From contig JALQPE010002496.1 of assembly GCA_030407315.1 (NCBI GenBank), forward strand, positions 20,833 through 84,832: DNA of 64,000 nucleotides, written 5' to 3'. Made by a program: the position numbers and the translations under genes. Shown here piece after piece: positions 6,593 through 64,000 of this stretch; position 1 is the stretch's first letter, and each line of letters begins with the position of its first letter. Origin of the DNA: Asparagopsis taxiformis (Eukaryota > Rhodophyta > Florideophyceae > Bonnemaisoniales > Bonnemaisoniaceae). The notes below the pieces were generated by a model. It was not told the DNA's origin and ran no database searches. It saw only the letters and a list, made by a program, of their open reading frames with translations.

Positions 6593-6660
6593 CTTTCCCG
6601 CGGGGTCCGAAATCGTTTCCTTCTTCTTCCCGAGTGAGAAACATCAGTCCCTCTCGTATG

Positions 6661-26712: not shown

Positions 26713-27056
26713 TCCCCGGATAAAGGGGTGCTCGCAGCCGCCCCAAAAGCCGCCTAGCTTGACAGCTGTAATTTTAACACATTACACATCAAGGACACTG
26801 CCTGCTTCACGCCACCTCGTCAGGTTTCGAGAGCCCGACTCGGGCCCGTTCTGAACGGACACTCACATCTCGATTGCCTGTCTTGCATTCCAGCGGTCAC
26901 GATAGGTGTGTACCTAACAAAATTTCGGTTGTATTGTGTTATTATTTCCAGCGATTGGCGTTCACGACCATTCTTCAACTTAACGTGAAACATACCATCC
27001 ACATCACTCGAATACGTCAACGTCAACCATCTCTTTTCCTTTCCAACTCAACAACC
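26713..27056 (+). other. Leader region of the ParB-like/dioxygenase gene
   Basis: The downstream frame stays open back to 26874. I prefer the ATG at 27057 because it has a strong context (ACAACCATGG) and begins the first acidic, protein-like segment. No TATA box seen. Confidence 0.4.
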
Positions 27057-33426: not shown

Positions 33427-35714
33427 AAGAGTGGTGCTTCTTCTCCAGTCGTTCGGTCTTTTGCATTGACTCTACTCTTCTTTTCCCGGGGAGGCCCAAT
33501 CTCAATGTTGTCATCCGGCGTATTGGGCTCAGAAAACTTCGCGCTAGTATCTTCCCTTCTTCGCTTCTTATCCAACCTGGACTCGTTTTCATCGCCGCTT
33601 CCACCAGAACTCCTGCTTCTTCCCGAATTCTCCTTGTCCACTTCGGCCGGGCTAGTGCTGTAAGTTTCTGGTGTCCTGATTCGAAGTTTCAATATCACAG
33701 AGCGGTTCTGCGCATCTCCAGCTTGTTGTCCAGGCGTGTCTATGTCCATGCGACCACTATTGTCCAAGTTGATATCCAGACTTTGCGTATCGCCGCTTTG
33801 TTTCCTTCCCTGAGGAAGATCTTCTCTGACAATCCTTCCCGGCGAATTATCCCTGGCACGACTTTCCCGCTCTGCCCTTGAAGCTGAAAGACGTTCCTGT
33901 TCTTTTGGAGAACAGCAAGACGTTCTGCTTCCCTCTTCTCAGCTGCTGCAAGACGCGTGGCAGGACGTTCTGTCCTCCCTCTTTTGCTGCGGCAGGACGG
34001 TCTTCTGCTTCTTTCGGGGTGCTCAGAGGTGCCTCTTCTATTGCTTTCGTCGCGACAGCAGGAATCACTTCTTCAGCCACCACATTTGGAGTAATTTCCT
34101 GTTTCCTCCACAAACAGCAGAAACTTCCTGCTCTGCTTGGGCTTCGGCAGATACTCCTTCTTCTGCTTGAACAGGACCAGAAGTTTCCACAGTTTCCTTC
34201 TCTGTAGAATTATTTCCCTGTTCTGCGGCAGTAGGTGCTTCTTCGTCTTCTGCTTTGGCGCCATCAACAAGTGCTTTTTCTATTTCTCCGGGGGTCATGC
34301 GATTCCGTTCCCTCTCCTCCTCCGCTTTCGTCTCCTGCATTGCCTTTGTCCCGGTAGCATATTCCAGTTTGTCGTAAAAACTGTTTGTAAACATCCCGTT
34401 CTTGGTTCTCAGACTGCTACTGTCTACCACGTCGTCATGAAAGTCGACAAGGACGAATACAATGCGCTCTCCAATGCGATGATCATTATCCCCGACCTCC
34501 TTCGCGTTTTCTGCTGCCAAATCCGTTCGCACGAATTCCTCCATCGTTGCAGAGTTCAACCACTTGCGGACGACCTCTGCCATATCATAGATGGCCAACA
34601 GAGCCAGTAGCCAAGTGCGCATCGTGAACGGACTTCCGCTTCCGATATTTCTGACAAGTCCTCTCTTCCTCCTCATCCTTGTCCACGACGCTGTCATCTC
34701 GAGCACAAACCACTGGAACCACTCCTTATCGCGCGTCCCGCGTCCGTCCGTGCCATTGCGGAATATTGCGTTATTGACAAGATCGAGCACGCACCCGTAC
34801 ATATCGGCAGAGTCAATTCGAGAAAAGTCCGGATCTCTTCCCTCGGTTCTTGCATCCTCGATTTCTCTGTTCCTATCCAAAGCATTGTAAACGCTAGGGA
34901 TAGAGCTCCAGTACACGAAAGCAACGCTGTCTGTGCGATTGAACCCCTTCGCAATGTTGATGTACTGCCTATACGAGTTCTCCGAACGGTTCCTGTCGGA
35001 CGGCAGAATATAGCTCACTTCTTTCAGAATAGGAATAAGCCGGACAACAGGAAGATCCATCTGGTTGGAAAACCTGAGAAACTCTATGACCGCACACACA
35101 TTGTCGGCAATGCTCACAGAAGCGACATCGTGAGTTTGTATATTGGCTTCGAGAGACAGTTTCAGAACCTCCAGCGCATCGAAAATTAGACGCCCGTTCG
35201 GCGCAATCAACTGTTGTACCCAAACCAATTCCAAGGAATCCCTGTTCTTTCCTGAGTACTTCTCCAGGCATAGTTGCAGAGCAGCTATGCGATGAGAGCC
35301 ATCGATGCAGTAAAACTCGTCTCCTTCGTTATCTTCCATTTTGCAGACTGTAATCATAGTTCCAGTGGTAGAGAAACCTCTATCCATGAAAATGCTGGCC
35401 AGTTCGTTTACACGACCCGGTCGCACCAAACGGGAGGTCACTGTCGGAAATTTCACTTTGCGAGGATCAACTTGCACTTTAGAAGAGCTGTACTGAGCAA
35501 TAGTGATGCTTTTCTCTTCAGCAGAAGGAGAATTGCTCTTCTCCGCTGTAGTATTCATGATACTATTGTCTCCCATTGTAATCCCTGCAATCTCAGTTCG
35601 TTCAATCGGTTCTCTGTTCAAATGTTGTGTAGACGATGAAATCCACAATTGTGGTACCTCCGAGTGCGCTTCCCGTCTCTCAGCTTCCTCTCTTATACTG
35701 TCCGGACAAGACAT
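33427..35714 (-). pseudogene. ParB/Srx-like domain protein, 3' end truncated by repeat insertion
   Basis: ATG at 35712-35714. The first frame runs 549 residues to 34065 and holds the ParB/Srx motif CIDGSHR (D138-R142), with VDPRKVKFPTVTSRLVRPGR upstream. A helical region follows (to ~residue 430), then an acidic/Ala-rich linker. The linker continues in a second frame (33847-34113; EEVIPAVATKAIEEAPL) and a third (33470-33767; basic, KKRRREDTS), so at least two frameshifts are present. Coding character stops at ~33427, where the 2.1-kb repeat begins. The protein resembles the N-terminal half of the 27057 protein in layout (ParB-like domain, helical domain, charged linker), so an effector domain may once have followed. 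The ParB-like part may still be expressed. Confidence 0.65.
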
Positions 35715-36413: not shown

Positions 36414-36929
36414 CTTACAGCAAAGTCATCGTTACGATGACTTTGCTGTAAGAAAAGAAAACATTACAGCAGCCATGATTTCTTTACCGGGTAAAAAAAT
36501 TGTGGCCGCTGTAATGAAACGTTTTCTTACAGCAAAGTCATCGTTACGATGACTTTGCTGTAAGAAAAGAAAACATTACAGTAGCCATGATTTCTTTACC
36601 GGGTAAAAAATTGTGGCCGCTGTAATGAAACGTTTTCTTACAGCAAAGTCATCGTAACGATGACTTTGCTGTAAGAAAGCAAATCATTACAGCGGCCACA
36701 ATTTTTTTACCCGGTAAAATTTCTTGCTGATTTTTTACCCGGTAAAAAATTCTTCGGCCACTGCAAGGAAACGGTTCCTTACAGCAAAGTCATCGTTACG
36801 ATGACTTTGCTGTAAGAAAGCAAATCATTACAGCTGCCACGATTTTTTTACCCGGTAAAACATTCTTGGCCACTGTAATGGAAACGTTTTCTTACAGCAA
36901 AGTCATCGTAACGATGACTTTGCTGTAAG
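36414..36929. mobile_element. Fold-back palindrome cluster, five palindromes
   Basis: Five near-perfect 39-bp palindromes (36414-36452, 36526-36564, 36637-36675, 36778-36816, 36891-36929) share the arm CTTACAGCAAAGTCATCG. The ~70-100-bp spacers are themselves inverted repeats with GAAAACATTACAGC arms centred on TTTACCCGGTAAA or TTTACCGGGTAAA. The period is about 111-140 bp. The outer TIRs seen at 3763 and 4663 are missing. The cluster lies 120 bp past the stop of the minus-strand transposase gene. Confidence 0.85.
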
Positions 36930-42653: not shown

Positions 42654-43135
42654 TTACTGTCTCCAGGTGCTGCCCAGGGCAGCACGAAATACTGTCTCCA
42701 GGTGCTGCCCAGGGCAGCACGAAATACTGTCTCCAGGTGCTGCCCAGGGCAGCACGAAATACTGTCTCCAGGTGCTGCCCAGGGCAGCACGAAATACTGT
42801 CTACAGGTGCTGCCCAGGGCAGCACAAAGTACTGTCTACAGGTGCTGCCCAGGGCAGCACGAAATACTGTCTACAGGTGCTGCCCAGGGCAGCACAAAGT
42901 ACTGTCTACAGGTGCTGCCCAGGGCAGCACAAAGTACTGTCTACAGGTGCTGCCCAGGGCAGCACAAAGTACTGTCTACTGCCCAGGTACAGCACAAAGT
43001 ACTGTCTCCAGGTACTGCCCAGGACAGTGAAAATCACTGTCTCCAGGTACTGCCCAGGACAGTGAAAATCACTGTCTCCAGGTACTGCCCAGGACAGTGA
43101 AAATCACTGTCTCCAGGTACTGCCCAGGACAGTGC
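42654..43135. repeat. 35-bp subterminal tandem array with an internal palindrome
   Basis: Nine units carry the 19-bp palindrome GTGCTGCCCAGGGCAGCAC joined by (A)AATACTGTCTCCAG or AAGTACTGTCTACAG linkers. Diverged units follow to 43135 with GGTACTGCCCAGGACAGTG. Period 35 bp. It lies between the TNP2-like transposase and the TIR at 43488, the place where CACTA-type elements keep transposase-binding repeats. The long open frames here are by-products of the repeat. Confidence 0.9.
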
Positions 43136-49501: not shown

Positions 49502-50421
49502 ATGCCTCGTAACCCTACAATGGGACCCTCTAGTGAGGACATCGCGCCTGCCAGCGACTTATCCGATTCGGATCTGATCGCCGAAGAAGGCGTGGTGATT
49601 AACACCCTGCAAGACCGAGCCGACCGAATCTTCAACGAACGGTTGGAAGAGTTCAAGGCTGAATTCAGCACCGTCGTCGAGAAGACTGTTCAAGACCGCA
49701 GGGCGGAGATCGTAGACGCTACGGTCGAAACCGTAATGGAACTGGTCGAGCCAAAATTGCTGGCCGCCAGCCGAGAAGCCACCCAAGATCGGGACGCCGA
49801 GTTCCTAGCGGAAACCTGGAATCACGTCAAAGCCGAATTCGCTAAACGCGTATCCCGTTTGGAAACTCGTCTGGAAGAGCTTTCGATTCACGGCTCTAAT
49901 GCCAGTCCGTTAGGACAACAGGAGTTTCCTTCGCGCCGCATCCGATCAGCCGACTTCCCCGACCCTACACCCAGTAGGGAGGAAAAGAAGAAGATCCCCG
50001 ATTGGATCAAGTCGCAGAAGCGACCCGACACCTGTCGGACCGTGTCGACGCCCTCGCCGAATCACTATCCCAAACAGGGAATATCTCTCGCACGAGATAG
50101 CACACTCGTGCCACCGGATCTGCACCGGAAAATCCCTCGTGGGACGATGAAGAAGGACCTCTTGAGGAAGGCTTGGTGCCCTTGAAGGCCCGCAAACCTG
50201 CGTTCGACCTAGTGGTCTCCTATCGGTACTACCGACTCAAGAACAAGTCCCTAACGACTGATACCCCAATGGGTAAATCAAGAAGCTTGTATAAGCTAAC
50301 GGAGAAGATCCGTAATTTCAACGCGTCATTCACGCCGTTCGATGGTACGGAACCTAACACTGATTTGCATATGAACAGAATGTACTTCCGGAAACAGAAT
50401 CTGAAAATTTTTCGATGTTGA
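49502..50421 (+). pseudogene. Retroelement Gag-like protein, frameshifted and truncated
   Basis: ATG at 49502. The first ~160 residues are acidic and coiled-coil-like (RIFNERLEEFKAEFSTVVEK; ETRLEELS). Around 49985 the coil-like pattern moves to another frame (VAEATRHLSDRVDALAESLS) and hits a stop. Further gag-like sequence lies in the frame reaching 50421 (KARKPAFDLVVSYRYYRL, then NFNASFTPFDGTE, a common Gag-type F-GTE motif). No zinc knuckle or Pol follows. The layout suggests a Ty3-like Gag remnant; class is uncertain. Confidence 0.5.
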
Positions 50422-51020
50422 TTGACTAATCGTAAGTTGATTGAAGTGTGGCCAATGAGATGAACATATTGACTGATTGGCCGGAATTGCGCTGACAGCT
50501 CCAAGTTCATCACTGCCCCAACCCAATTTGTTTGTCTTACAACCAGTCGCAGCTTGGTTCGTTTACAATCCTCTGACAGCCTGTCGACAATCTGCTCGCT
50601 TCTGCCTTGAAAGTCGCGTTTCAACCGTATTGGTAGTTTTCAAAACAATCTGACCATACTAGAGTTCTTATTTGATAACATTATCTGTATTTATTTTATA
50701 AAAAACTATATGTGCACCGTGGTTCTATTGTTAATATTTGCTCGCCGTGTTGGTGCAGCAGCATGAAAGCGATCCATTTCATGTCTGCCGATGCATCGCA
50801 CCCATGCGCATAGGGAGATAAATGAATAGTTTAACTGGAACATGCGAGTGCATATCCCTTGTCTAAACGCACAGGATCCGTATGGCGCGCTTGGTGGGTT
50901 TGTCGAAATATAGTTGCCTGGTAAGACAACCTGCTAGAGTAGACGAAACATATTTGTAGTACAAAATGACTACCGCCAATCCAAGGTCGCATTCAATACA
51001 TCACGACGAGTCTGTGTTGC
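50422..51020. other. Intergenic, no feature recognised
   Basis: AT-rich junction between the gag remnant and the cut 3' end of the TOG gene. Nothing supported. Confidence 0.45.
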
Positions 51021-54000
51021 TCATACTGGCCGAGGAACTTGATCGCTTTGTATCCCAATATCTCCACGTAGCCTTGGTATGAGCCATTCTAATAAATCCT
51101 TCCTGAAACCGGAGTTCAGGTTATCGAAAGGCAGATGACAGTATGGAATAAGGGGTGCAAGACCGACTGTGTCAAACCAGCTATCCAGACATTTCATCGC
51201 AGACTCTCTCACACTCTTCTTGATGTCTACACATCCCTGCCCGAGAACAGCCGGTACTAATGCTTTCACATGTATGATTGCACCTGGTCCCATCGCTTGA
51301 ACAAAGCGACCGACAACAGAAAACGTCATTGTAGCTAAGTTACGATTGCTATCGCTCAGCCGTGCCCTCAATGCTGAAATGATCTCACTACCGACATTCG
51401 GCTTGACGAAATCACCAGCGTTCTCCAGAATGAGAGTAATGGCTGTCAACGCATCTTGCCTTTTCTTCCAGTTGGAGTTCTTCAAGTCCAGGAAAATTCT
51501 AGAGTTGGGCGCGAATTCGTTGGCAATAGATACCCGAACAGTTGGCTTCACCTGTGGCTGTGATTCTTCTTCATGTTCTTCAGGAGGATGTTCATGGGTT
51601 TCCTCAGGAATGTGTTCTGGTGGTCCATCACGAGGTTGTTCTGGGATAATCTTTGAAGGTTTATGAATAGGAGTACCCACCTTCGGTGGCATACGTTCGG
51701 CCTTCACGGTTTCCATGGGAGGTTCGGGTTCTTCCGGAACTTCTTCGACTGCTGGTGAAGGATTCTGTGAGACACCAAATCGCTTTTTCCTAGTGGGAGG
51801 ATCTGGATCACGGGTGTACTTCTGCATTTCTGTATCAAACAGTTCTAATGATTCTTGCGGGGTTTCAGCTTCTTCCAGTAGCTTCCTGAATTTCTCAGCT
51901 CCATATCGTAAAGCTGTTTTGCAACCTAAGGCCAAGGCCGCGGTTCTCGCTGCTGGTGCGGCGAACCCTATAGAGATTGAAGTTAGTTTTGCGCTCGTTT
52001 TTCCAGGAACAGCCGGAACGCTAAAGTCCTCGACAAGAGAAGAACCAAATTTCAGAATTCCAACGACTGCTCTACTATTCTTTGTTTCTTGAATTGCTTG
52101 GGACAAGATTTCAAAAAGGTAACGCGCACTCGTGGCTCCGCAAATGAAATCATTATTGCGCTTGCTATCTTCGCACATTTGATATCCCCAATCTTCTCAA
52201 CAGCAATAAGCAACAACGGCTTGAGAGTTTTGCGGGGCAAGTGGGAAGTACATTTTGTGGCAACCATACCGAAAAGTTCAAGCTTTGGTTCTAACGCCAT
52301 GAAATTACTGTCGTTGAGGCCTGGTTCACAAGCTAAGAGAGCAAGGCAAATAGCTATGTCTTCATCTGTGAATGTCTCTTTCGGCTCTAGAACGCTGGTG
52401 ACCGTAGATACTGCAGCAACTCGACCCTTGAAGCTCTTTCCACTCCATTGATCGGGCTGGAAACCCTCAAAGCGCTCTTCAGCTATACTAAGAATATCAT
52501 CAGATTTGAGGGATATCTCACCCTCATCATCACTTTCCTCGATAACTGGTTTCTTAGGGGGTAGAGGTTTCGCGCGTTTTGGTGCTGAGGATAGCTTCTT
52601 TGCAGCAGCAGCCTTTGCTGCTTTTGCTTCAGCTGCCTGCTTCGCTGCTTTGGAACGGGTTGTTACGGATGACTGCGCAGTAGGGGCTTTCGAAGACGAA
52701 ACTTTCTTAGGTTCAGGTAAATCTGCAACTATTGTAGCAACTTTGTCTTTTCGTTTCTTGTCGAGCTTCTCCATGAAAGCAGCGACATTTCGGTCACCCA
52801 ACAGTTTCTGTAGCGAAGCTAAACCAGCAAGCGCAGCCTCACGAACCTCTGGAGATTAATCGTCAGTTGCTTTGACAAACATGTTACCAAAACATTTCAG
52901 GGGATTACCCTTCAAGTCGACAGGAGCCATGCCAGTTCTAATACATCGTCCAACCCACTTCAAAAGTTCACTACGAGCTTTTGGAACTTTGTGTGATGCG
53001 GCAGTGGTGATTTCATCCAAAAACTTCACGATGAGCAAGCATTTCTTTTCGTGCAGAGCGTCAAGAGCTGCAGACACAGCATCTACAAGGATTCGATTCT
53101 TCTCTTTCAGTGTACCAAATAGATCCACGCTAAGTCCCTTTGAAGCACCGCTCGGAAAAGCTTTCTTGAGTCCGTAACACATGGCTCGGATAAGCTTTGC
53201 GGCCGAAGCAACAACGTTGACGTTGGAGTCCTTTGTAAGTATCTTTCGAAGGCGAACAAAGATTTCTTGGTGGGTCCCAGGGACTAGTCTGGCATCACCA
53301 ATGATACTGATCGCAGCGTCCAGTGCTTGTTTACGAGCACTCCACTTTTTCGAATCGAGCGCAAAGTACCAATCTTTGGTGACCTCTTCTTCAATCTCAA
53401 TCTTGACTTTGCTGAGTTTTTCAAGAAGGTCGATTTCCTCTGCAAGATCAATTTCCTCTTCTTCGGCGATTCCGTCGCCGAATCCATCGTCTTCATCGCT
53501 ACCACCGCCCTCTTGTGCGCTGGCACGAACACGCTACTCCATAGCGCGAGTTAGTTTCTTGGGTTTAGGTTTTCGATTTTTCGCGTTGGCTTCGAAGGCG
53601 GCTTCGACCTCTTCGACAGTGACCTCTTTCGCGTTCTTCACGACGACTTTATCTTTGTCGCCTATCCAACGGTGCAATTCGATGACCAGTGCTTTAGCAG
53701 CGTTACGAACCGTTTCCTGAGAATGTCCGAAAAGTGGGGGGAGTTTTGTTGTAATCGCAAGAATAGGTACTGCGGAGCTTCCATACGTCGAAAGAGCTTG
53801 TAAGATGCTGTCCACAGAAGCGGAAACAACTTTGGGGGTTCTGTGCTTGAAACCGTTAGCAGCCATGGTTTCCACCGCCACATCACCCGCGTCTGCGCCA
53901 ACAAACATTAAAAACGCATCAATTACTTTGCTCTTATTAAGAGGCCGACCAGCCAAACCTTTGTCTACGATGCCCATGACAACGTCTGTGGCGACTCGCT

Positions 54001-54262
54001 TGACTAGCGGCGGAGGAGCGGTATCCGCAAACTTTGCAATAGCTTCGAAGCCAATGAGCTGAGCGGGGGCATTTGCGTCGCGAGCAATTTTTGGAAGTGC
54101 AGCCACAAAGTCTGTGTAAATCTTGCTGTCCTCTGGAGCGACATTGAATTTGTCAGTGAGTTCGCGGTAGGCGGCTTCTCTAACCTTCCAGTTTTTGTGC
54201 GAGGTACGTTCAGAGAGCGGTAGCTTTGCAGCTTCTGCAACGGGATCAACGTCCGGTTTCAT
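51021..54262 (-). pseudogene. XMAP215/MOR1/ch-TOG-type microtubule polymerase, interrupted
   Basis: Starts at ATG 54260-54262 with a TOG domain (PLSERTSHKNWKVREAAYREL; KNWKVR is the TOG signature). One frame stays homologous-looking for ~2.1 kb through a second TOG (WYFALDSKKWSARKQALDAA) and a linker, but holds an in-frame TAG (53534-53536, after TRAME) and TAA (52857-52859, between ATDD and SPEVREAAL). Near 52150 the frame shifts (AKIASAIMISF to CGATSARYLFEIL). A later TOG (NSNWKKRQDALTAITLI) runs to a stop at 51021, well short of the ~2000 residues of plant and animal members. The family adds tubulin at microtubule plus ends. It is either a recent pseudogene or carries assembly errors; other genes here use TAA and TAG as true stops, so recoding is unlikely. 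Confidence 0.75.
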
Positions 54263-54773
54263 GTGTGTTTAAGAAGTTGGGTACGTCAGGTGTGAGATGA
54301 GTGATGAAGCGCACGGTATAGAAACAAGCACAGAGAGCCGCATATGAGTGCTGGGATAGATGCAGGCGAAAGCGAGTGACAGAGTTCAGCGCTGACCAAA
54401 AATTGGCGCTCGTTGCGCCGACCCATTTGAAGTTTTGAATCTGAGCATTACAGTATTGAATTAAGCAGCGATTGCTGGAATAATGGAATTAATTTCTGGG
54501 CATTGCAGGATAGATTCAACTGTTTCTTTGCACATGTTGCGAGCACAACTTTTCAACTTGTTTCCGCCCGTCGCTACGGGGGAAAAGGTCTCTATTGTCG
54601 TTGTCGCGATTCATTCGCACACCCTTTAAAAACGACGACTGCAATGCCAATCAAATGCGCTTGGCAAGTTCTCAAACCGGCTTGCAGTGCATCTACGAGT
54701 GATACGAATCTCACATGATTTCGTTCACAATTGTGACGCACACATTTGGTTTTCGTTTAATTGGACTACTGCA
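54263..54773. other. Intergenic between the TOG gene and the small membrane-protein gene
   Basis: Upstream of the TOG gene start and downstream of the small gene's stop. No motif stands out. Confidence 0.4.
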
Positions 54774-54965
54774 CTACACGCTTTTTCGCAAGCCCAGCAG
54801 ATAATAAATGAGGTAGGCCACTAAGCCGAGCAGAAGAGTGACTATAAGGAACATGACGAAATGATCTGGATCATCATGACGACTCTCGGCATGGGCTTTG
54901 GAGTGGCGCTCACTTGGCTGGCGTCTCCTTCTCGCAGTTGTAGAATCTCCGTTGGTCGTATCCAT
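54774..54965 (-). CDS. Small tail-anchored membrane protein (63 residues)
   Basis: ATG at 54963-54965. The first ~35 residues are hydrophilic and basic (TTARRRRQPSERHSK). Residues ~40-60 form one hydrophobic helix (VMFLIVTLLLGLVAYLIYYL), followed by a short basic tail. This layout resembles tail-anchored ER proteins such as SERP1/RAMP4, but sequence identity is not evident. It is head to head with the protease fragment at 55002, with only 36 bp between start codons. Confidence 0.5.
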   Translation of the reverse strand: MDTTNGDSTTARRRRQPSERHSKAHAESRHDDPDHFVMFLIVTLLLGLVAYLIYYLLGLRKSV

Positions 54966-55001
54966 CGCGCTCTGTTTCACAACATTCTAACCTTGCGGTG
55001 A

Positions 55002-55204
55002 ATGGCGCTCGACAACCGGCAGCGAAGCACGAGTGCCGGCATCTTCCTGCTCGGATTTATCATTTTCATTCACGAAAGCGGTCATTATCTAGCCGCTAGA
55101 CTACAGGGGAGTCGGGTGAAGAACTTTTCTATTGGGTTTGGTCCCAAGCTATTCTCATTCACGGCGGACGATTCGGAGATGGAATTCACTGTAAGAGCTG
55201 TAAA
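55002..55204 (+). pseudogene. Site-2-type zinc metalloprotease (M50, RseP/plastid S2P-like), N-terminal fragment
   Basis: ATG at 55002. A hydrophobic helix leads to the active-site HExxH ([14 protein letters not shown]). [15 protein letters not shown] follows, the strongly conserved M50B sequence, then EFTVRAV. Members continue with P-LGGYV right here; instead the sequence changes and stops at 55223. The change falls at ~55204. Intact proteins cleave substrates inside the membrane (in algae and plants, plastid membranes). I infer interruption by an inserted element; a GTAAGA at ~55191 could instead be a splice donor, but the residues after it still match the family. Confidence 0.7.
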
Positions 55205-55286
55205 AACGCTTATCAGCAGATAACCTCCTGTCGTCGCTATTCACTAGCATGAAGGAAGAGTAAAATGGTTGCTGACATTTATGTTT

Positions 55287-56585
55287 CTACTCCCATAGAT
55301 CTAGTTGACGTCGAAGTGTTTCGAAAGTAAATGTATCTAGCACTCCTCCTCGAAGATAAGGTACATCTAGAATAGCAGAACTTACACTAACTGAATCTGT
55401 CCAAGCACGACCAGTCTTTGGTAGCACACAAGGTTGGTACTTGCAGGTTAGTGCATGACCTGCACACTTCTTGTACCAGTGCAATTTGAAGTGGGAGACG
55501 TTGCCTTCTCGATCTTTCTTCGTTGAGAGAATCTTGCCAAGCCAGAAAGGCTCCTCAGATGTACAACCGTCTCCTTTGATAATAACAAATGAATTGGTTG
55601 CATATTTTTCATCACTATCACCACGTTCGACACAATCGTCTTCATCGGAACCATTAATACCATTATCACCGCATCCATCGCCACCACCATCACCACGTTC
55701 GACACAATCGTCTTCATCGGAACCATTAATACCATTATCACCGCATCCATCGCCACCACCATCACCACGTTCGACACAATCGTCTTCATCGGAACCATTA
55801 ATACCATTATCACCGCATCCATCGCCACCACCATCACCACGTTCGACACAATCGTCTTCATCGGAACCATTAATACCATTATCACCGCATCCATCGCCAC
55901 CACCATCACCACGTTCGACACAATCGTCTTCATCGGAACCATTACTACCATTATCACCGCATCCATCGCCACCACCATCTCCGAAATCAATGCACTGCTC
56001 AGATATATTGTCTTGTTCATCGCCCTGCTGTTCTTCTACGTTGTTACCTGACAATATCCTCTTAGTCTTCCATAGAATATCTCTTGAATAAAGGAACGTA
56101 GACATTAGAAACACATAACAAACTCGTATTGTGCCATATTTGTAACACTTGAAATCCTTCACGAACAGTGATTCCAGAAATAAACGCCGCTCCGCTTTGT
56201 TCATTTTCGCAACTCTTTTCAGGTCTTCACAGAGCTTTTTTCCATCAACATGCTTGAAGCAGAAATCCTTACAGCAGGTTAAATTTTTTAGCTCCTTGTC
56301 ATTTACCCTTTTCTCAATTTCAATGGCTTTGGTAACCCTCTTCGCCTTTAGGCCGCTAGCCTGAGCTTCTTGGATGCGTTTCCCAGAGCGGGAGGAGCCA
56401 GAGTTGGCTGAACGTGGCGCTTTCCTCCCTACCGTAGAACGGATATTGACGACCGGGGATGTGCGAGGAGACTTTTTCGCTAGAGTCTTCCGTTTCACTG
56501 TACCTTCCATGGATCCATCCTTGACGACCGGGGATGTGCGAGGAGACTTTCTCGCTAGAGTCTTCCGTTTCACTGTACCTTCCAT
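55287..56585 (-). CDS. Transposase-related protein lacking the catalytic core; repeat-filled centre
   Basis: 432 residues, ATG at 56583-56585. The N-terminus has a 25-residue direct repeat (MEGTVKRKTLARKSPRTSP, twice). Residues ~100-180 carry a Cys-rich motif (LTCCKDFCFKHV) and the pattern RRLFLESLFVKDFKCYKYG...VCYVFLMSTFLYSR. This matches residues ~190-275 of the 60894 protein (QFCCKKRRCF...RRYLEKLF...VCYKFLESSFMFSR). The C-terminal ~110 residues (GCTSEEPFWLGKI, FKLHWYKKC) match that protein's end (GCTKEMPFWLGQI, LFIRWYEVY). Between them, instead of the transposase core, are five 24-residue acidic/Gly repeats. It could bind the same DNA or partner as the transposase without cutting. Frame intact. 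Confidence 0.7.
   Translation of the reverse strand: MEGTVKRKTLARKSPRTSPVVKDGSMEGTVKRKTLAKKSPRTSPVVNIRSTVGRKAPRSANSGSSRSGKRIQEAQASGLKAKRVTKAIEIEKRVNDKELKNLTCCKDFCFKHVDGKKLCEDLKRVAKMNKAERRLFLESLFVKDFKCYKYGTIRVCYVFLMSTFLYSRDILWKTKRILSGNNVEEQQGDEQDNISEQCIDFGDGGGDGCGDNGSNGSDEDDCVERGDGGGDGCGDNGINGSDEDDCVERGDGGGDGCGDNGINGSDEDDCVERGDGGGDGCGDNGINGSDEDDCVERGDGGGDGCGDNGINGSDEDDCVERGDSDEKYATNSFVIIKGDGCTSEEPFWLGKILSTKKDREGNVSHFKLHWYKKCAGHALTCKYQPCVLPKTGRAWTDSVSVSSAILDVPYLRGGVLDTFTFETLRRQLDLWE
55617..55980 (-). repeat. 72-bp coding minisatellite, five units
   Basis: Five near-identical 72-bp units inside the 432-residue gene, each coding 24 residues (GDGGGDGCGDNGINGSDEDD+CVER). 72 is a multiple of 3, so copy-number changes keep the frame. 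Confidence 0.95.
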
Positions 56586-56652
56586 GGTGTTTCTGACAAC
56601 CCATCACATTTCGCCAACGTAGAGTAGCAGCTACAACGCAATTAAATAAAAA

Positions 56653-56667
56653 CAGAACGATGTTCTG
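56653..56667. promoter_or_regulatory. CAGAAC-N3-GTTCTG site 1
   Basis: CAGAACGATGTTCTG, perfect 6-3-6 palindrome, 68 bp upstream of the 432-residue gene's start. Confidence 0.6.
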
Positions 56668-56895
56668 AAATTTGTATCATAACGTCGCTCTGGCTGGAAG
56701 CTTCCAGCAACACAATTGATATTTGATACGAACTTAAAATTTTTAATGTTCTGTAAACTTTCCAAAAACCTTTACACTTGTACAGAAAGGTGCACAACTT
56801 CTTCCCGAGCCCAAAAACACTACGAGACTATCCAAATTCCCTTTGTAGATTGCAAGAAATTTAAGTAACACTGAACTGTGTTCTGGTTCTCGCAT

Positions 56896-56910
56896 CAGAA
56901 CCTTGTTCTG
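56896..56910. promoter_or_regulatory. CAGAAC-N3-GTTCTG site 2
   Basis: CAGAACCTTGTTCTG, perfect 6-3-6 palindrome in the divergent intergenic region. A one-mismatch site (CTGAACTGTGTTCTG, 56871-56885) lies just before it. Confidence 0.6.
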
Positions 56911-57811
56911 TCTCGAAGCGTCCCGCCCAAAAATGACCAGAACGGTTTAGACCCAGTAACCGTTGCGAAGCTATTAAAATCCCATATGTACTCTCCATAA
57001 AGTTTAGGTGAAAAAGAACTGTGTTCTGGTTATATCATCAGAATGACTTTCTGTTCAGAAGCTTCCAGCCCAAAAGAGACGTTCGGAATTAATTGGAACT
57101 ATTTTTCTGTCGACTATGCGGACCGGAAAATGTGACACGGGAGGTGAATACATCCTCCAAGTTGGACAAGATTGATACCTATCCGCGAATATTGATATTT
57201 GATGCATAGGTTTCATGTTCTAAGATTAGCTTGAGCATTCTGACACATCATCTCGGGACGATTATTTCCATTTGAATGTAACCTCGCGAGACTATACCCT
57301 TCAAAATTGCCACCGGAATATCAAAAAATTTGGGCCCTAAGCCCACCAATTATGGTCACTCAATGCAGTCTATGTGAAAAACGTTTCTATTGGTTATGCG
57401 AAGGATAGGACAAAATATCTGTTGTCAAATATTGATATTTTCTAGACAGATAAACGACACCATTGGCCCGGCTTTCTATTCCATATATCACTTCCATATA
57501 GTTTCTCATCTCTCTGATGACCATGTGATTGCCAGGTGTGCCGAAAGTACTACTCCCGAAATGCAGATTGATTGGGAGGAATGAAATCTGACTGGAATGC
57601 AACTTTACAAATTTTGAACTCGTAAAAGGTTCACTGACTTACTTATCATGGAACTCAACACTTGCGAGAAAACTCTTCATGTAGCAAAAGGAGGCTCCAA
57701 TCATTCAATTATCCTGTCGTTTTCGTTCCTCGTTTCTGGACAAAGGTTCAGCCTGGTCAAGTTCACAGCGCGAAACCACAGTTTTACTCAGAGCTCGATT
57801 GTGACCAGAAG

Positions 57812-60682
57812 ATGAGTAAGCGATTCTTTCAAGCAAAACACAAAATAAGCTCGACAGAACCTAGTTCTGGTCGGGAGGATGCATCCGTTAAAGCATTGTT
57901 CGCTGATATCATGGAAGGCTCGACAAACAGCCGTGTAGATCCTCGATCTTGCATTCCGTTGACATCAATTCGTCAAATATCCCGCTCTGGTGTCTTGAGA
58001 TTGAAGTCTATATTCAGTGGAGGTTCCACAGTTTCTTCGGGAAAGAGAGATGGAATGCCCATAGAGAATATTGGAGATGGATTTGTTGCTGGATCTGATA
58101 ATGCTATTGTTGTAGAGCTAACGGGAGGTTTGAAAAGACATGTGTTGGACTTCTTCCGATCTAAACTCGGCTCGGACGGGGAACCTATCTCTGAATCCCA
58201 AGCCGCAGAAAAAGCAGAAGATCGTTCTGTCTGGTACGGAGTAGTAGACGGAATGCACAGAATGACTGCTATTCGTGAGTTAATAGACGAAGATCCAGAA
58301 CACTGGGAGTCTTTCTTGTGGCCTGTGACTATTCTGAAAGGCGGACACAGCTTGCAAACTTTGAAGCAATTAGGAAGGCATCAGAATAAGAAACATGATG
58401 CATCCTTTTACATCGAATCAACTTTCTATGATACTTTGGTCGGTTTAAGAGATGAAGCTGACCGATTGAAGACCATGTCGAATGGTAGAGCTCCATCTGC
58501 GAAACAGATCGCTTCAGCGTATGATGGTTGTACGCATCTGAAGGATAATACTATAAGACAAGCAGCAACAACAGCAGTTAGACTTCCACTAAGTGTAATA
58601 CATGAGATCGGAGTAATCATGAACGAAGAGCACCCGGATTTGGCAGAACCAAGTTCTGCTGAATATAAACCGCTGGAAAAATCCATGAATATGCGATGCA
58701 CCGATTGTCGAGTATACAGGAAATTCATCAACATAACTTCAATCAAGTCCGCGACAAAGTTCATGAGAGCCTCAGGTCCGGACGGAGAAAAGAATCAAAT
58801 CAACACGCTCCACCGGCTGAGGGAAATTTCTAGAACGAACAAGTTCAAAGCAGCATCGTATAAGGTAACAGTGGAGCAGTTTGAGAGTGCTTGTAGTGCA
58901 ATGAGGGAGGCTCGAAAGTTTGAAGCTCTTTTAGAAGATGATGAATGGCCGTCTGGAATGGAAGTAGTCAAGCACAACTTACTCCGTACCACAAAATTTG
59001 ATTGTGAAGTTACTGCCAATTTCGGGAATGATGGAGATGTTTTAGATTCTCTTCTTAAACAATATCGGAAAGTTTGTCCTGAGGCTGCACCGCTTAAAGA
59101 AAAAAAGTTTTCCGAGAATTTCACCAGGGAGAAAGAACTTCAGGCTAAAGACAATTGTACTGCCTTAGCTTCCGCGGATGATTCTCTTCCAATCGCAGCT
59201 GAAGATATCACTAAAGGGGGTGAAGTTCCTGAAGATCAAGTTCCACATCCAGTGCCGAGCATCACTATAGAAGGAAAGGCACCAAGAACATTACCACAGG
59301 ATCTAGGCGATATGCCTGAATCAGAAGTCTTGACCAAACCTAATTCGGAACCAAATTCCGTTCAACCGAAGCAGGTTAACAGGAATAATTCCGCTCCATC
59401 AAACGCTCCGAGTGCCAATTCTGTCCGACTGAATACGCGTCCAAAACGAGTTGCTTGTACTACAGAAGTGCTGGATGAGAAAATTAACTATCTTGACGAA
59501 TTGGGTGTTTCATGCCACCAGATGAAATGGCAAGATTTTGATAAGACCGTTTGGACAGATGGTGATGCTCTCTTCGATCTTATACTGACAGATCCACCGT
59601 ATGGGACGCCTAAATCTCGTTCTTTGCGAAACACTTCTTACGATAACTTCATAGATGACAAGGAAGTGAAAGAGATATGTCAGTTTGCCAGGCGCGTCTT
59701 GAAGCCGGGAGGGTGGTTTCTTGCATTTGTTTCATTTCGAAACTTCGAACTTTTCTACAACGAACTTCACCGCATCGGATTTGCCGGACCAGAATACCCA
59801 TTCGTAATTATGAAGGATACCAGTACGATGCAAGCTCACAGAGGTGATCAGTTTCCTCAGAACGCTTGTGAATTTTCTGTCATTGCAAGGGCACCAGGAA
59901 TTTCGAAAAGTGCATTCAAGCCAGATTTGAGGAGCCCTTACAACTTCGTTCCTTCAAAGACAAGCAGACGGTTTGCTGCTATGTCAGGTATACCCGTTTC
60001 AAAAGAAAAGCTCCTTTTGCCAGGCACGAAATCTCCCGTCCTAACAGAGGAGAAAAATGTGGGTCTGCTTGCTGAACTAATCAATACATTTTGTCCAGAA
60101 CGGGGTTCTGTTTTGGATATTTACGGAGGTACTTTCACTACTGGAATAGCTTCGTTGCGAACTGCACGTTCATGTGTAGTAATCGAGTCAAGCGCATCTA
60201 CATTTCGTCTTGCCCATGAGAGGCTACGTGCAGTGGCAGAGATACTGTACCGAAAAAGTCCATCCTCACACCACGCAATGAAGAAGAGAAAGACGCGAGA
60301 GAATTCAAAAGCTGAAAGCAGTGGAGAAATCACGAAGATGATCGAAAAGAGCAGTACTATTGTTCAAAGTGGAAACGATATGCTGAAAGGAGGGGACGGA
60401 GTTGAATTACTCCTTGATGGAATCACTATTGGTCATGCAAAGCTTCTGTCAGCTCCAGATAATGACAGTGATTTACATACTTCTATTCATAATGTTCCTC
60501 TCTCTGAGTACGAGAAAGATGGCCAGAAGCTAGTTGCATGCTATTCCTTCAAAGTTAAGGAGGATGCTGGCGATAAAAAATACCCATATGGTTATGGAGG
60601 CATCGAGAAGCCTCCGGGAAACCTGAAGGGCTTAGCGGGAATATTCTCTTGGGACCTACACAGCATGAGATGTTCCAATTGA
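57812..60682 (+). CDS. ParB/Srx-like domain fused to a beta-class DNA methyltransferase
   Basis: 956 residues from ATG 57812; upstream codons in frame are less protein-like. Residues ~40-190 hold the ParB/Srx signature VVDGMHRMTAI (D146), preceded by an RSGVLRLKSIFSGG strand. Residues ~200-450 are helical. A charged linker leads to the methyltransferase: motif IV LTDPPYG (D594), KPGGWFLAFV, then the AdoMet motif GSVLDIYGGTFTTGIAS (D769) and SASTFRLAHERL. Motif order makes it beta-class, N6-adenine or N4-cytosine. ParB-like plus DNA methylase fusions (COG1475 with COG0863) are common in phages and bacterial integrative elements, so a bacterial origin is plausible. It contains three of the six CAGAAC-N3-GTTCTG sites and is followed 211 bp later by the transposase gene. 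AT-rich codon use, unlike the 22-31 kb genes. The ParB-like domain could be a DNA-binding, NTPase or nuclease module. Confidence 0.82.
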   Translation: MSKRFFQAKHKISSTEPSSGREDASVKALFADIMEGSTNSRVDPRSCIPLTSIRQISRSGVLRLKSIFSGGSTVSSGKRDGMPIENIGDGFVAGSDNAIVVELTGGLKRHVLDFFRSKLGSDGEPISESQAAEKAEDRSVWYGVVDGMHRMTAIRELIDEDPEHWESFLWPVTILKGGHSLQTLKQLGRHQNKKHDASFYIESTFYDTLVGLRDEADRLKTMSNGRAPSAKQIASAYDGCTHLKDNTIRQAATTAVRLPLSVIHEIGVIMNEEHPDLAEPSSAEYKPLEKSMNMRCTDCRVYRKFINITSIKSATKFMRASGPDGEKNQINTLHRLREISRTNKFKAASYKVTVEQFESACSAMREARKFEALLEDDEWPSGMEVVKHNLLRTTKFDCEVTANFGNDGDVLDSLLKQYRKVCPEAAPLKEKKFSENFTREKELQAKDNCTALASADDSLPIAAEDITKGGEVPEDQVPHPVPSITIEGKAPRTLPQDLGDMPESEVLTKPNSEPNSVQPKQVNRNNSAPSNAPSANSVRLNTRPKRVACTTEVLDEKINYLDELGVSCHQMKWQDFDKTVWTDGDALFDLILTDPPYGTPKSRSLRNTSYDNFIDDKEVKEICQFARRVLKPGGWFLAFVSFRNFELFYNELHRIGFAGPEYPFVIMKDTSTMQAHRGDQFPQNACEFSVIARAPGISKSAFKPDLRSPYNFVPSKTSRRFAAMSGIPVSKEKLLLPGTKSPVLTEEKNVGLLAELINTFCPERGSVLDIYGGTFTTGIASLRTARSCVVIESSASTFRLAHERLRAVAEILYRKSPSSHHAMKKRKTRENSKAESSGEITKMIEKSSTIVQSGNDMLKGGDGVELLLDGITIGHAKLLSAPDNDSDLHTSIHNVPLSEYEKDGQKLVACYSFKVKEDAGDKKYPYGYGGIEKPPGNLKGLAGIFSWDLHSMRCSN
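57855..57869. promoter_or_regulatory. CAGAAC-N3-GTTCTG site 3 (inside coding sequence)
   Basis: CAGAACCTAGTTCTG, perfect palindrome. It is read as E-P-S-S with GAA in frame. Confidence 0.6.
58644..58658. promoter_or_regulatory. CAGAAC-N3-GTTCTG site 4 (inside coding sequence)
   Basis: CAGAACCAAGTTCTG, perfect palindrome, read as E-P-S-S in the same codon phase as site 3. Confidence 0.6.
60096..60110. promoter_or_regulatory. CAGAAC-N3-GTTCTG site 5 (inside coding sequence)
   Basis: CAGAACGGGGTTCTG, perfect palindrome, read as E-R-G-S just before the methyltransferase AdoMet motif, same codon phase. Confidence 0.6.
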
Positions 60683-60893
60683 GATAAAGATGTTTGCGAA
60701 TGAGTACTATTTTTGTACATTGCACTACTGAAGAGCGATTCCAAACATCTAGAGAAGAATGGAATAAATCTTTTCACATCGATCATTACCGTTGTACAAT
60801 ATTTGGCGCCAAATTTGTTCTCTGTTTTTGTAAGTTTGAATTATATGCTCTATCAGTACTTACAAATTTTGCCCGCCTTCTGTTCACCTCTCA

Positions 60894-63518
60894 ATGAAAG
60901 TGAGCGTTCGAAGTGAAAACCACTGCAAACTCATGGAGGACACATTTTGCCTCTCCGACACCAACCGCAAACTGATTCACAAAAGTGCTGTCGGTATTCT
61001 TGCAACGCTGGGGATCGAAGCCGAAGCTGAACAATGCACCAGCGAGAACTCATTTCCGCATCATCCAAACCGATCAAAATCATCTGCAAACCAAGGAATT
61101 CCATTGAGCAATGATATAATTCCAATTCGTTTCAACAGAAACCGCCAAGAATATGTCAGAGGTTCATTGAATCGTTCGGAATCTGGAATTCTTTTGGAGC
61201 GTAATGACGGTTACGGAAATATTCCATTTCAATCACCGCTGGAAGTAAAACAAGCTTCTGTATCTGACTGCTTATCTCCAAGTACTGCAACAGAAAGATA
61301 TTCTGATTCTTGTGCGTCATCTTGTCCAATTGGAAAACCATCCATCTATCAGTTGGATACAAGTCCACGAAAAAGCCATGATAGCGACAAGAGGAGTAAT
61401 GGAAATCGTGTGAGCAAAAGGATGATCGAGAAGAGGAAGCATGTCACGTCTTTATCTAATCTAGACATCAGAAAACAGTTCTGTTGTAAGAAAAGGAGAT
61501 GCTTTCGAAGTACAGACCCAACGTTTCTGAGGTCTGAAGTCAGCCGAGTACTTTTATGGGGAAGGATTGATCGGCGAAGATACTTGGAGAAATTATTCGA
61601 TCCCAGCTCTAAAGTTTACCTTTTTTGCGGGAGGAAAGTCTGCTACAAATTCCTGGAGTCTTCCTTCATGTTTTCTAGACACATGCAACGATCAGTGAAG
61701 ATTTCATGGGCAAATGGAAGATCAGTCTGTTTTTCATCAGCTCAAAAAGACCCAGAGAGTCCACAGAGGGACTCTGTTATATGTTTCCTGGACAGATTTG
61801 CGGATTCTACAGCGGAGCGAATGCCTGACACCAACGAAAGACACCTTCCACTCTTTCAAAAGAAATCTGTCTATGAAGTTTTCCGAGAACAGTACACTGT
61901 TCTGCATGGATATCATAATATACCTTCTTTGGCATACTTCTACACAACTTGGAAGAAGTATTGCGGTGATATCAAAGTAAGAAGAATTCAGCGATTCACA
62001 AAATGTACTGATTGTGAGTATATTCGGGACGCTCTAGCCAAGTATGGAACAGACAAGAAGAGTACAGCTCCTCTTCTTGAACGGAGACGTTTGCATATAG
62101 AGATGGTTTCTCGGGAACGTAGAGAGTATCAGAAGAGGTGTGAGCTAGCGGCGTTGTACCCTTCGCAGTATACATCACTTATCGTGGATGGTGCAGACCA
62201 GTCTGGATATGGGCTTCCCCATTTCACTGTCAATACAAAAGCGACAGTTGGGCATAGTTTGAAGGTCAGGCTGATAGGTGTACTAGAGCATGGTGCCCGA
62301 AAACATCTCTCGTTGTACACCATGACCGCAGAATTTGAAACTGGTGCTAACCATATCGTGGAAGCGCTTCACAGAACGCTTTCAAGCAAAGCATTAGGAT
62401 CTAAACTACAGGGAAAACTTTTTTTGCAAGTTGACAATTGCACACGGGAGAACAAAAATTCATTCTTGTTCTGCTACTTGGAATGCTTAGTGGCATGGGG
62501 TGTGTACGAAGAGATATTTGTGTCTTTCCTTCCTATAGGACACACTCACTCTGATATCGACCAAGCCTTCAGTTGTACATCAAGGAGACTGAAATTCAAT
62601 AACGCAGCAACTATGGAGGATCTCCACGATGAACTGCGAAAGTCTTTCACGCCTGAACCATCTGTCTCCCGCATGCTACACATTATCAATTTCTCGGGTT
62701 TATGTAAGATGGAAAACTGTATTGGGAAGGTGAAACCTTTTTCAAAGTACCGCTACTTCAGATTCTTCAGAGATCCCGAAACAGAACGGGGTTCTGCCTT
62801 CTTCAAAACTGCTTGTGATGTCAAAATTTCTTGTGATGACCAGTGGAGAAGCCTTCCAGCATTGACCAATGGTCTCAAAGGATTTACTCGATCTCCACCA
62901 AACCTTCACGCGGCACCCTGTAACTCTGTTGTCTGTCCACCAGATAAGGAAAAAATTCTTCTAAGGCTCAGATCAGAGGAGGTAAGGGTGAACAGTGTCG
63001 CTAAAATGAGATCACTTCATGCACTGGTTGCTCAAGTGTACAGAGACAGAGACGAACCACTACATTGGAACTTGGAAGAGTGCGTAGAGCTGAATGGAAT
63101 TTACAGTAATCAGAGTTTTTCCAACCATGGGTTTGACGAGGATGAAGAAAATTTACAGGAAATGATGGCTCAAACAGACCTACCTTATTCTAGGAATCGA
63201 TTTGTTGCTGTTAATGGATACGGATGTACGAAGGAAATGCCTTTCTGGCTAGGACAGATTATCGAATGTATCCAGGATGGAAGTGGCGTGACAAGAAATC
63301 TGTTCATAAGATGGTATGAAGTGTATGACAAAGGGGATGCATGGAGTGGTAAGTATCGTCCGGCGACAGTTGGAAGAGGAAAAAATATAGACCCTTGGCA
63401 AGGGAATATTTCTGTGGATACAGTAATAGCTGAGTTTGATTCTTTGACGAACAAGAAACTCAGAGCAGGAGTAGAGAAGGAAATTAGAGCAGGTTTAGTA
63501 GCATTGGGGAAATACTGA
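60894..63518 (+). CDS. DUF7869-type transposase-like protein
   Basis: 874 residues, ATG at 60894. Residues ~190-275 carry a Cys-rich motif (QFCCKKRRCF) shared with the 432-residue neighbour. The core has IVDGADQSGYGLPHF (D432, D435), TGANHIVEALHRTL, LFLQVDNCTRENKNSFLFCY (D514) and FLPIGHTHSDIDQAFS (H550-D556). This is the pattern I associate with DUF7869 proteins, which occur in large families in algae, cnidarians and other genomes and look RNase H-like. A transposase role is likely but not shown. The C-terminal ~110 residues (GYGCTKEMPFWLGQI, RWYEVY) may be a small beta-barrel reader-like domain. It follows the ParB-like/methyltransferase gene on the same strand with a similar AT-rich codon use, and contains CAGAAC-N3-GTTCTG site 6. 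Confidence 0.75.
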   Translation: MKVSVRSENHCKLMEDTFCLSDTNRKLIHKSAVGILATLGIEAEAEQCTSENSFPHHPNRSKSSANQGIPLSNDIIPIRFNRNRQEYVRGSLNRSESGILLERNDGYGNIPFQSPLEVKQASVSDCLSPSTATERYSDSCASSCPIGKPSIYQLDTSPRKSHDSDKRSNGNRVSKRMIEKRKHVTSLSNLDIRKQFCCKKRRCFRSTDPTFLRSEVSRVLLWGRIDRRRYLEKLFDPSSKVYLFCGRKVCYKFLESSFMFSRHMQRSVKISWANGRSVCFSSAQKDPESPQRDSVICFLDRFADSTAERMPDTNERHLPLFQKKSVYEVFREQYTVLHGYHNIPSLAYFYTTWKKYCGDIKVRRIQRFTKCTDCEYIRDALAKYGTDKKSTAPLLERRRLHIEMVSRERREYQKRCELAALYPSQYTSLIVDGADQSGYGLPHFTVNTKATVGHSLKVRLIGVLEHGARKHLSLYTMTAEFETGANHIVEALHRTLSSKALGSKLQGKLFLQVDNCTRENKNSFLFCYLECLVAWGVYEEIFVSFLPIGHTHSDIDQAFSCTSRRLKFNNAATMEDLHDELRKSFTPEPSVSRMLHIINFSGLCKMENCIGKVKPFSKYRYFRFFRDPETERGSAFFKTACDVKISCDDQWRSLPALTNGLKGFTRSPPNLHAAPCNSVVCPPDKEKILLRLRSEEVRVNSVAKMRSLHALVAQVYRDRDEPLHWNLEECVELNGIYSNQSFSNHGFDEDEENLQEMMAQTDLPYSRNRFVAVNGYGCTKEMPFWLGQIIECIQDGSGVTRNLFIRWYEVYDKGDAWSGKYRPATVGRGKNIDPWQGNISVDTVIAEFDSLTNKKLRAGVEKEIRAGLVALGKY
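62782..62796. promoter_or_regulatory. CAGAAC-N3-GTTCTG site 6 (inside coding sequence)
   Basis: CAGAACGGGGTTCTG, identical to site 5, read as E-R-G-S, same codon phase as sites 3-5. Confidence 0.6.
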
Positions 63519-64000
63519 ACTGTTCTTTGTAATATTTCTGCACCACGGAAATGAAATAACCATGAGATCAATCGATTTCGGAACATTTATGAAAAGGTCA
63601 ATCAATATCAGAATATGGAAATTTATTCAATCATTTTCGAAACAAATTTATTCTTAACTCGAAAATATATTCTGTTCATACAAAAATCAGTGTTACCTAT
63701 CGAATATCATCCGGTTCTCCTCGCGAATTTCAAGATGATGTGATTCATGCGGAGTCTCGGAGGGAGAATCTACAAGTTATTCAAGTATTTCCTGGAAGGA
63801 GAACCTCAAACGTTTTATCGCCGCCAGTGGGCGCGAAACTTTCGCCGCTTTGAAGCGCAAGCTTCTCAACAACCGCACCAGAAGATCACTTGGCCTCAAG
63901 CCCGTTAACGCCCTTCTGGCGACGCTAACGCGACGGACAATGTCTAGCGGACGCTAATGACGCGGTAAACGCGTATACGGCAAGGCCGGATGAAGATGAA
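63519..64000. other. 3' flank of the transposase and a GC-rich edge
   Basis: AT-rich to ~63790, then abruptly GC-rich with CGCCGC, GACGCTAACGCGACG and related words. That change may mark the element's end. The last bases read in one frame Y-T-A-R-P-D-E-D-E, faintly like the continuation missing from the protease fragment at 55204. This is too short to support. Confidence 0.3.

Follow-up and report, generated by a model that had tools for sequence, protein, structure and literature searches.

The window analysed here (the whole stretch of 64,000 nucleotides, or 64 kb, read from contig JALQPE010002496.1 of the red alga Asparagopsis taxiformis) contains a large DNA transposon, hereafter family A, along which a 15-base palindrome, CAGAAC-N3-GTTCTG, is repeated in promoter and genes. 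Copies of family A share sequence from about position 50355 to 63694 and diverge beyond; an earlier interpretation made from the letters alone (the sequence-only reading) had set the element at 56653..62796, and the true element is larger. It is classed as a DNA transposon by its inverted ends and 4-bp target duplication, the latter reading AGAG/AGAG and ATAT/ATAG in two other copies (C348 and C2105, respectively). The inverted ends, of about 30 bp (AACACTGATTT...TATGAACAGAAT...), are accompanied by subterminal TTGATTGA repeats, and termini like these are also found at both ends of the related families B and C and at the 3' end of family D. From left to right, the genes are the cargo, ORF3 (open reading frame 3, on the minus strand), a divergent promoter, a methyltransferase gene and a gene for a DUF7869 transposase-like protein:

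50356..63694, whole transposon, family A, 13.34 kb, with the ACCT target duplication at 50352-50355 and 63695-63698
50356..50387, plus strand, 5' terminal inverted repeat AACACTGATTTGCATATGAACAGAATGTACTT, pairing with the reverse complement of the 3' end
51021..54262, minus strand, cargo within the element: ORFs for an XMAP215/TOG-domain protein (Pfam XMAP215_CLASP_TOG, E=7.5e-50 for 53537-54262)
55002..55223, plus strand, cargo: fragment of an M50 (site-2-type) peptidase (Pfam Peptidase_M50, E=4.5e-16)
55287..56585, minus strand, ORF3: Cys-rich and C-terminal domains (blast against the transposase), with a tandem repeat in the middle of the protein
57662..60682, plus strand, N6/N4 DNA methyltransferase with a weak ParB-like part, 1006 aa (PF01555, E=4.8e-14; phrog_67, E=1.1e-23)
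60894..63518, plus strand, transposase-like protein with DUF7869 and an N-terminal Cys-rich domain, 874 aa (PF25273, E=3.3e-48)
63663..63694, minus strand, 3' terminal inverted repeat, pairing with the 5' end

Among the aligned members of the methyltransferase family, 11 of 12 have PF01555, and a DGMHR stretch is conserved in the N-terminal part. PF25273 is carried by all 45 relatives among the matches listed for the transposase-like protein. ORF3, for which no Pfam match was found, has its Cys-rich and C-terminal domains in common with the transposase-like protein and is devoid of the DUF7869 part (blast); the 72-bp tandem repeat within it (55610-55979) encodes DDCVERGDGGGDGCGDNG, and its copy number seems to vary among copies of the element. 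No relatives were confirmed in viral contigs. The TOG-domain ORFs are probably a captured host gene in pieces. Families A and B have the same inverted ends and core genes with different 5' cargo (window 51021-55223 in A, L065 3684-8551 in B), and the host-like pieces in A (TOG and M50 peptidase) may reflect repeated capture of host genes by these elements.

A palindrome dispersed through promoter and genes

A scan of the window revealed six perfect sites, precisely where the sequence-only reading had placed them (56653, 56896, 57855, 58644, 60096 and 62782), and five with one mismatch (56871, 57014, 58215, 61469 and 61890). The earlier list of the latter was partly right, since 56871 stands, a site given as 57015 starts at 57014, and the last three had been missed. 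No perfect copy had been seen in the remainder of the window, and the scan found none there with 0-1 mismatch either. At up to 2 mismatches, the 64 kb contain 24 sites against a shuffle mean of 3.28, and 14 of these sites are in the core of the element, 6 in the promoter and 8 in coding sequence. The promoter sites belong to three diverged repeats of about 63 bp, each organized as site-N10-site, and because of this the two perfect sites of the promoter count only partly as independent. In the following list, which includes sites of a relaxed form (CRGAA-N5-TTCYG), A' is a diverged relative of A, and D, E and F are further related families:

50376..50390, palindrome CAGAATGTACTTCCG of the 5' terminal repeat, 0 mismatches to the relaxed form and 3 to the strict motif
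56653..56667, perfect site CAGAACGATGTTCTG, on the left in composite repeat 1 (partner at 56678, 2 mismatches)
56871..56885, one-mismatch site, on the left in composite repeat 2
56896..56910, perfect site CAGAACCTTGTTCTG, on the right in composite repeat 2, no longer present in A'
57014..57028, one-mismatch site, on the left in composite repeat 3 (partner at 57039, 2 mismatches)
57855..57869, perfect coding site CAGAACCTAGTTCTG, methyltransferase gene
58215..58229, one-mismatch coding site CAGAAGATCGTTCTG, methyltransferase gene (mismatches in relatives: A' 1, B 1, E 2, D 3, F 3)
58644..58658, perfect coding site CAGAACCAAGTTCTG, methyltransferase gene
59346..59360, relaxed-form coding site CGGAACCAAATTCCG, altered in A'
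60096..60110, perfect coding site CAGAACGGGGTTCTG, peptide PERGSV
61291..61305, two-mismatch, relaxed-form coding site CAGAAAGATATTCTG, transposase gene
61469..61483, one-mismatch coding site CAGAAAACAGTTCTG, transposase gene
61890..61904, one-mismatch coding site CAGTACACTGTTCTG, transposase gene
62782..62796, perfect coding site CAGAACGGGGTTCTG, transposase gene, peptide TERGSA in a variable loop
63660..63674, minus strand, degenerate palindrome CAGAATATATTTTCG of the 3' terminal repeat, outside the relaxed form

The palindrome CAGAATGTACTTCCG begins 20 bases inside the 5' end of A and is identical at both ends of B/C, and the 3' end of family D has a related motif (CAGAACGTACTTTCC). The four perfect coding copies were correctly said to lie in one codon phase. 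This favoured phase reads [S/P/T/A]-E-x-[G/S/R/C]-S-x. With relaxed forms included, it is used in A by all 5 sites of the methyltransferase gene and by 2 of the 4 in the transposase gene, and the B genes give 3 of 3 and 1 of 4. It specifies small flexible residues and no stop, so that sites would come cheap for the protein.

Chance and codon effects were rejected for family A on the basis of two kinds of control. When 779 patterns with the half-site or the spacing permuted were counted in the element core, the control means were 0 (no mismatch allowed), 0.03 (up to 1) and 0.44 (up to 2). The corresponding counts for the motif are 6, 11 and 14, which none of the 779 reached. In codon shuffles that preserve the protein sequence (400 per gene), the 3 perfect sites of the methyltransferase gene were never reached (shuffle mean 0.03) and its 4 sites at up to 2 mismatches were reached 10 times, and the counts for the transposase gene (1 perfect, 3 at up to 1 mismatch and 4 at up to 2) were reached by 2, 0 and 2 shuffles, respectively. 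The earlier idea of a dispersed, element-linked code that extends into coding sequence is upheld by these controls. Furthermore, when 13,312 palindromes with 5-base halves and spacings of 0-12 were ranked by their counts at up to one mismatch, CAGAA-N5-TTCTG came top in A (15), B (12) and E (7). The A core contains 11 copies of the relaxed form where 0.03 would be expected, the B/C core 8, the 4.3-kb E unit 6, D none and F one (expectation below 0.04 in each of these relatives), and the other 50 kb of the window one, where the expectation is 0.19.

Several other repeats were noticed in the window. In an array at 42820-43004, CAGCACAAAGTACTG, which resembles the motif with two mismatches, is repeated five times, and a 43-bp-period array from 11096 onward has 23 copies with CTAGTA-N12-TACTAG. 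A second methyltransferase-bearing region (3800-39425) includes a Plavaka-type transposase (14399-17437), an N6/N4 methyltransferase with a SET domain (21938-25393) and two ORFs that are ParB-like by eye (26874-30989, with an end that is dioxygenase-like by eye, and 34065-35714). It contains a 21-bp palindrome, AAGTCATCGTnACGATGACTT, in 11 copies (6 at 3801-6748 and 5 at 36423-36900), as well as further palindromic repeats between its genes, and may be a second element that has dispersed palindromes of its own.

Related families and the rest of the genome

A methyltransferase gene, whole or in part, is found in all of families A to F. Identity to the A methyltransferase is 72% in E (over 447 aa), 61-64% in B/C, 55% in D and 54% in F, and identity to the A transposase is 68-69% in B/C (main piece), 65% in D and 66% in F; B and C, which are 98.4% identical, are counted as one family. 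Accumulation of the motif beyond chance was found in A, B and E, not in D or F. At up to 0, 1 and 2 mismatches, B has 0, 3 and 9 sites (no control among the 779 reaches 3 or 9), E has 1, 1 and 4 (reached by 1, 9 and 0 controls), D has 0, 0 and 3 (15 controls reach 3) and F has 0, 1 and 2 (21 and 48 controls reach 1 and 2). In codon shuffles of B at up to two mismatches, the 3 methyltransferase-gene sites and the 3 transposase-gene sites were reached by 4 and 1 of 400, respectively. Within the A methyltransferase gene, site 58215 is shared with B, 60096 partly so, and the others are unshared; what persists across A, B and E is therefore the motif, not fixed positions. Either D and F never dispersed the motif or they lost it, and no alternative dispersed palindrome stands out in either family among the 13,312 ranked. 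In the cargo of B, one perfect site was read in C1581 and is found by pattern on 8 of the 20 contigs that hold a B site. ORF3 is the most diverged of the three element proteins between A and D, with 23% identity over 359 aa (30-34% in the best local pieces) against 55% for the methyltransferase and 65% for the transposase. In the D copy, the transposase frame is split and the methyltransferase frame open, and a near-perfect 58-bp palindrome lies just upstream of the methyltransferase (L037 2948-3005), where A has its promoter repeats. The E unit (L043, C481:28700-33300), of 4308 bp, is present in at least four tandem copies as judged by site spacing and contains ORF3 and a truncated methyltransferase, without a transposase.

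Diverged copies of A allowed conservation of the sites to be assessed. In the A' relative (C1911), which is 88% identical over 2953 aligned bases and has a broken reading frame, the four methyltransferase-gene sites with at most one mismatch are unchanged at every one of their 48 fixed bases (P=0.002 against random in-phase windows; about 0.012, i.e. 0.227 cubed, if the site by which the locus was found is omitted). A second A' copy (C2936, 92% identical), whose locus was found via the 62782 site, has kept that site with its spacer now GGA.

It had been argued that a high density of the motif outside the element would undo the case. Across the genome scanned (141.5 Mb, 3156 contigs) the motif is not dense outside these elements; perfect sites number 241, and the reversed pattern gives 5. 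Sites were assigned for the first 50 listed, for the 95 with a C/G middle base and for the 9 with an ATG spacer, and nearly all the perfect copies so assigned are in these transposons or in a hAT-like one. The first 50 fall into 40 in A, 6 in the hAT-like element and 4 in E (judged by spacer, spacing and fetched loci). Among the 95, 93 have a spacer known from A/A', B or hAT: 65 have GGG/CCC (A), 12 are hAT-like, 11 have ACT (8 on contigs with B and 3 in an A'-like context, including C1911, which was read) and 5 have TCC (including C2936, read as A'), which leaves 2 unclassified; the reversed pattern with a C/G middle base gives 3. The nine with ATG comprise 4 in E and 5 in a family G, which is either a repeat or a gene, present on five contigs (some perhaps redundant) with two sites 489 bp apart. 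The ORF of family G has no Pfam match, and family G could be a host gene. The variant CGGAAC-N3-GTTCTG occurs 92 times against 8. CGGAAC-N3-GTTCCG (52 against 4) was dropped as evidence because the 50 places listed share one spacer (CCG/CGG) and are probably one repeat with a single site in each copy, a caution that applies likewise to any lone site within a repeat. The sequence concerned, CGGAACCCGGTTCCG, found by pattern at 52 places of which 50 were listed, seems to be a lone site in some other repeat.

The hAT-like element, of 2.6 kb, has AGGGATGTTCAC ends and a weak Pfam hAT match (E=0.0023, below cut-off). Within its last 700 bases there are three sites with 1, 2 and 0 mismatches (three also in the relaxed form), and a subfamily 90% identical to it has sites with 0, 1 and 1. 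Its counts of 1, 2 and 3 sites at up to 0, 1 and 2 mismatches are reached by 0, 1 and 2 of the 779 controls. The copies contain the motif without A-type terminal repeats. These three sites contradict the notion that the code is private to the element, and with few sites or none in D and F it is not universal among the element's kin either. The presence of the motif in promoter, genes and (relaxed) ends of family A, and also in an apparently unrelated transposon, suggests a self-recognition tag read by a transposon-encoded protein.

Candidate readers of the palindrome

The existence of the site system is firm, and the mechanism is put forward as a hypothesis. There is about an even chance, in our view, that the palindromes are binding sites of a dimeric protein encoded by the element and used for recognition of its own DNA. 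A dimer is predicted because the motif is palindromic with a free spacer, and an element-encoded protein because there are few sites outside these elements and one is in the terminal repeat. The reader would most likely be the Cys-rich domain common to the transposase and ORF3, because the motif is present in the terminal repeat, where the transposase complex must bind. ORF3 might then coat the element by way of its internal sites and recruit a chromatin function, be it the DNA methyltransferase encoded in the element or protection from silencing by the host, a service that the hAT-like element with the same motif would borrow. By analogy with the VANC anti-silencing proteins discussed below, the likeliest function would be self-recognition for chromatin control, and the high divergence of ORF3 would fit a fast-evolving specificity factor. 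It is rather unlikely that the most complete scenario holds in every part, namely that the transposon writes a self-recognition code in its genes, promoter, ends and, in one family, cargo, marks itself by its own methyltransferase, and is eavesdropped on by an unrelated hAT-like element that evolved the same tag.

A number of observations seem difficult to reconcile with recognition by an element-encoded protein. Family D carries the full set of three genes together with a related terminal repeat, yet no dispersed sites, F has one or two sites only, and codon shuffles revealed little or nothing unusual in these two families (nearest to an exception were the F methyltransferase at up to one mismatch, reached by 25 of 400, and the D transposase at up to two, reached by 31 of 400). 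Every core site in B and C has 1-2 mismatches, and the perfect site in the B cargo is absent from the C589 copy. In the 4.9-kb cargo of A, the best match is a single site with 2 mismatches, a count that 236 of the 779 controls attain as well. Retention of the sites in related copies, on which the sequence-only reading had made its code depend, holds for the four methyltransferase-gene sites in the 88% identical A' but not throughout, since the relaxed site 59346 has one change and the promoter sites, in a stretch 81% identical between A and A', show both loss and gain. Thirteen hAT-like copies, which are too young for constraint to be visible, do not conserve the sites better than their surroundings (3 of 36 site columns are variable, and 7.8% of columns outside). 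Finally, a protein search with ORF3 gave no relatives, its internal repeat having probably dominated the word matching.

Among the alternatives, the one to be taken most seriously, unlikely as it is, holds that the palindrome is read by the ParB-like methyltransferase itself, in the manner of ParB on parS, and that the enzyme methylates adenines there or close by. The element would thereby be chemically marked as self, along with the hAT-like element that copied the tag. A methyltransferase gene or piece is indeed present in families A to F, its catalytic motif is DPPY, which is typical of N6-adenine enzymes, and parS sites are likewise palindromes that can sit in genes. An earlier paper has raised the possibility that ParB-like methyltransferases of algal transposons modify the element that carries them (PMC12477816). 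Nevertheless, the ParB-like part is weak (DndB match with E=0.099 in the window protein, and E no higher than 0.1 in 3 of the 12 members), and matches in a PDB search with the protein are confined to the methyltransferase domain. A specificity of 12 bases would also be long for a methyltransferase. The Cys-rich domain is favoured because in D a related motif persists at the terminus and the methyltransferase frame is open, yet sites are not dispersed. That a host DNA-binding protein reads the palindrome, several transposons having acquired it as an enhancer or chromatin-entry site, is more doubtful. This would account for a motif common to two apparently unrelated transposon types and for the paired sites of family G, but host targets would be expected, and the 2 perfect C/G-middle sites outside recognised spacers do not exceed the 3 of the reversed control. 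Moreover, sites in coding sequence and in a terminal repeat suit a host activator poorly, and a silencer would select against them.

A role in transposition only, in which extra sites of the terminal type titrate the transposase or aid synapsis, is improbable. The motif form 20 bp inside the 5' terminal repeat is in accord with it, but internal matches in A are better than terminal ones, the subterminal TTGATTGA repeats already resemble transposase sites, and the motif is present in the hAT copies, which lack these terminal repeats. It is scarcely credible that the sites are a by-product of protein sequence, codon use or short-repeat copying. The preference of coding sites for one phase (all five in the A methyltransferase gene) and the location of promoter sites inside diverged 63-bp repeats would be expected of such a by-product, whereas the codon shuffles, the non-coding sites, the varied spacers and flanks and the independent top rank in three families argue against it.

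Comparison with known systems

A literature search found no paper for the motif strings or for DUF7869, and a broader one, judged at the level of listings, nothing naming such sites. A steroid-type response element was considered and rejected. That element, AGAACA-N3-TGTTCT, has similar letters, but its AGAAC and GTTCT are 5 bases apart, against 3 here, where the half-sites are CAGAAC spaced by 3 and not AGAACA. ParB nucleates on palindromic parS sites of about 16 bp, which can sit in genes; no partition role is indicated here, however, and ParB homology is weak. In the Dam control of Tn10/IS10, methylation sites are found in the transposon end and promoter, as the sites are here, but the enzyme is that of the host and the site has 4 bp, against a long palindrome in family A.

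The closest likeness is to VANC anti-silencing of Arabidopsis VANDAL transposons (PMC5735166; PMC10398659; both as far as available). In both cases a short motif is repeated along one transposon family, with a reader that is, or is here proposed to be, encoded by the transposon, and motif content differs among related families. The motif also appears in an unrelated transposon, the hAT-like one here and AT9TSD1 there, which has VANC6 motifs, is unrelated to VANDAL and is likewise hypomethylated (PMC5735166, available part). There are also differences. According to the accessible parts of PMC5735166 and PMC10398659, the VANC21 motif is a non-coding 9-base sequence, YAGTATTAY, and motif-less coding probes were bound poorly. 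Here, the motif is a 15-base palindrome found in genes and, relaxed, in the terminal repeat, with 4 of the 6 perfect sites coding, beside three diverged 63-bp promoter repeats. Binding and hypomethylation have been demonstrated for VANC; for the palindrome described here, binding is predicted.

An accessory protein with ParB-like and N4/N6 methyltransferase parts is also found in a large DNA transposon of Ectocarpus, Sola1-1_Ec32 (PMC12477816), the transposase being Sola1 there and DUF7869 here. The accessible text of that paper, which also cites red and green algal elements with ParB-like methyltransferases, proposes that these proteins may bind the transposon that encodes them and alter it epigenetically. 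As to why eukaryotic transposons have bacterial-type DNA methyltransferases, self-modification is suggested in that text and no recognition site is named, and the present motif supplies candidate sites. A 15-base palindrome that is, as far as assigned, nearly confined to transposons thus offers a concrete site for the study of self-recognition. The site system is well supported and would be a variant of motif-based transposon self-recognition, differing from VANC in that the motif is palindromic and also inside genes. If confirmed, it would represent a further case, beside VANC, of self-recognition by a dispersed motif, one that is also coding and common to different types of transposon.

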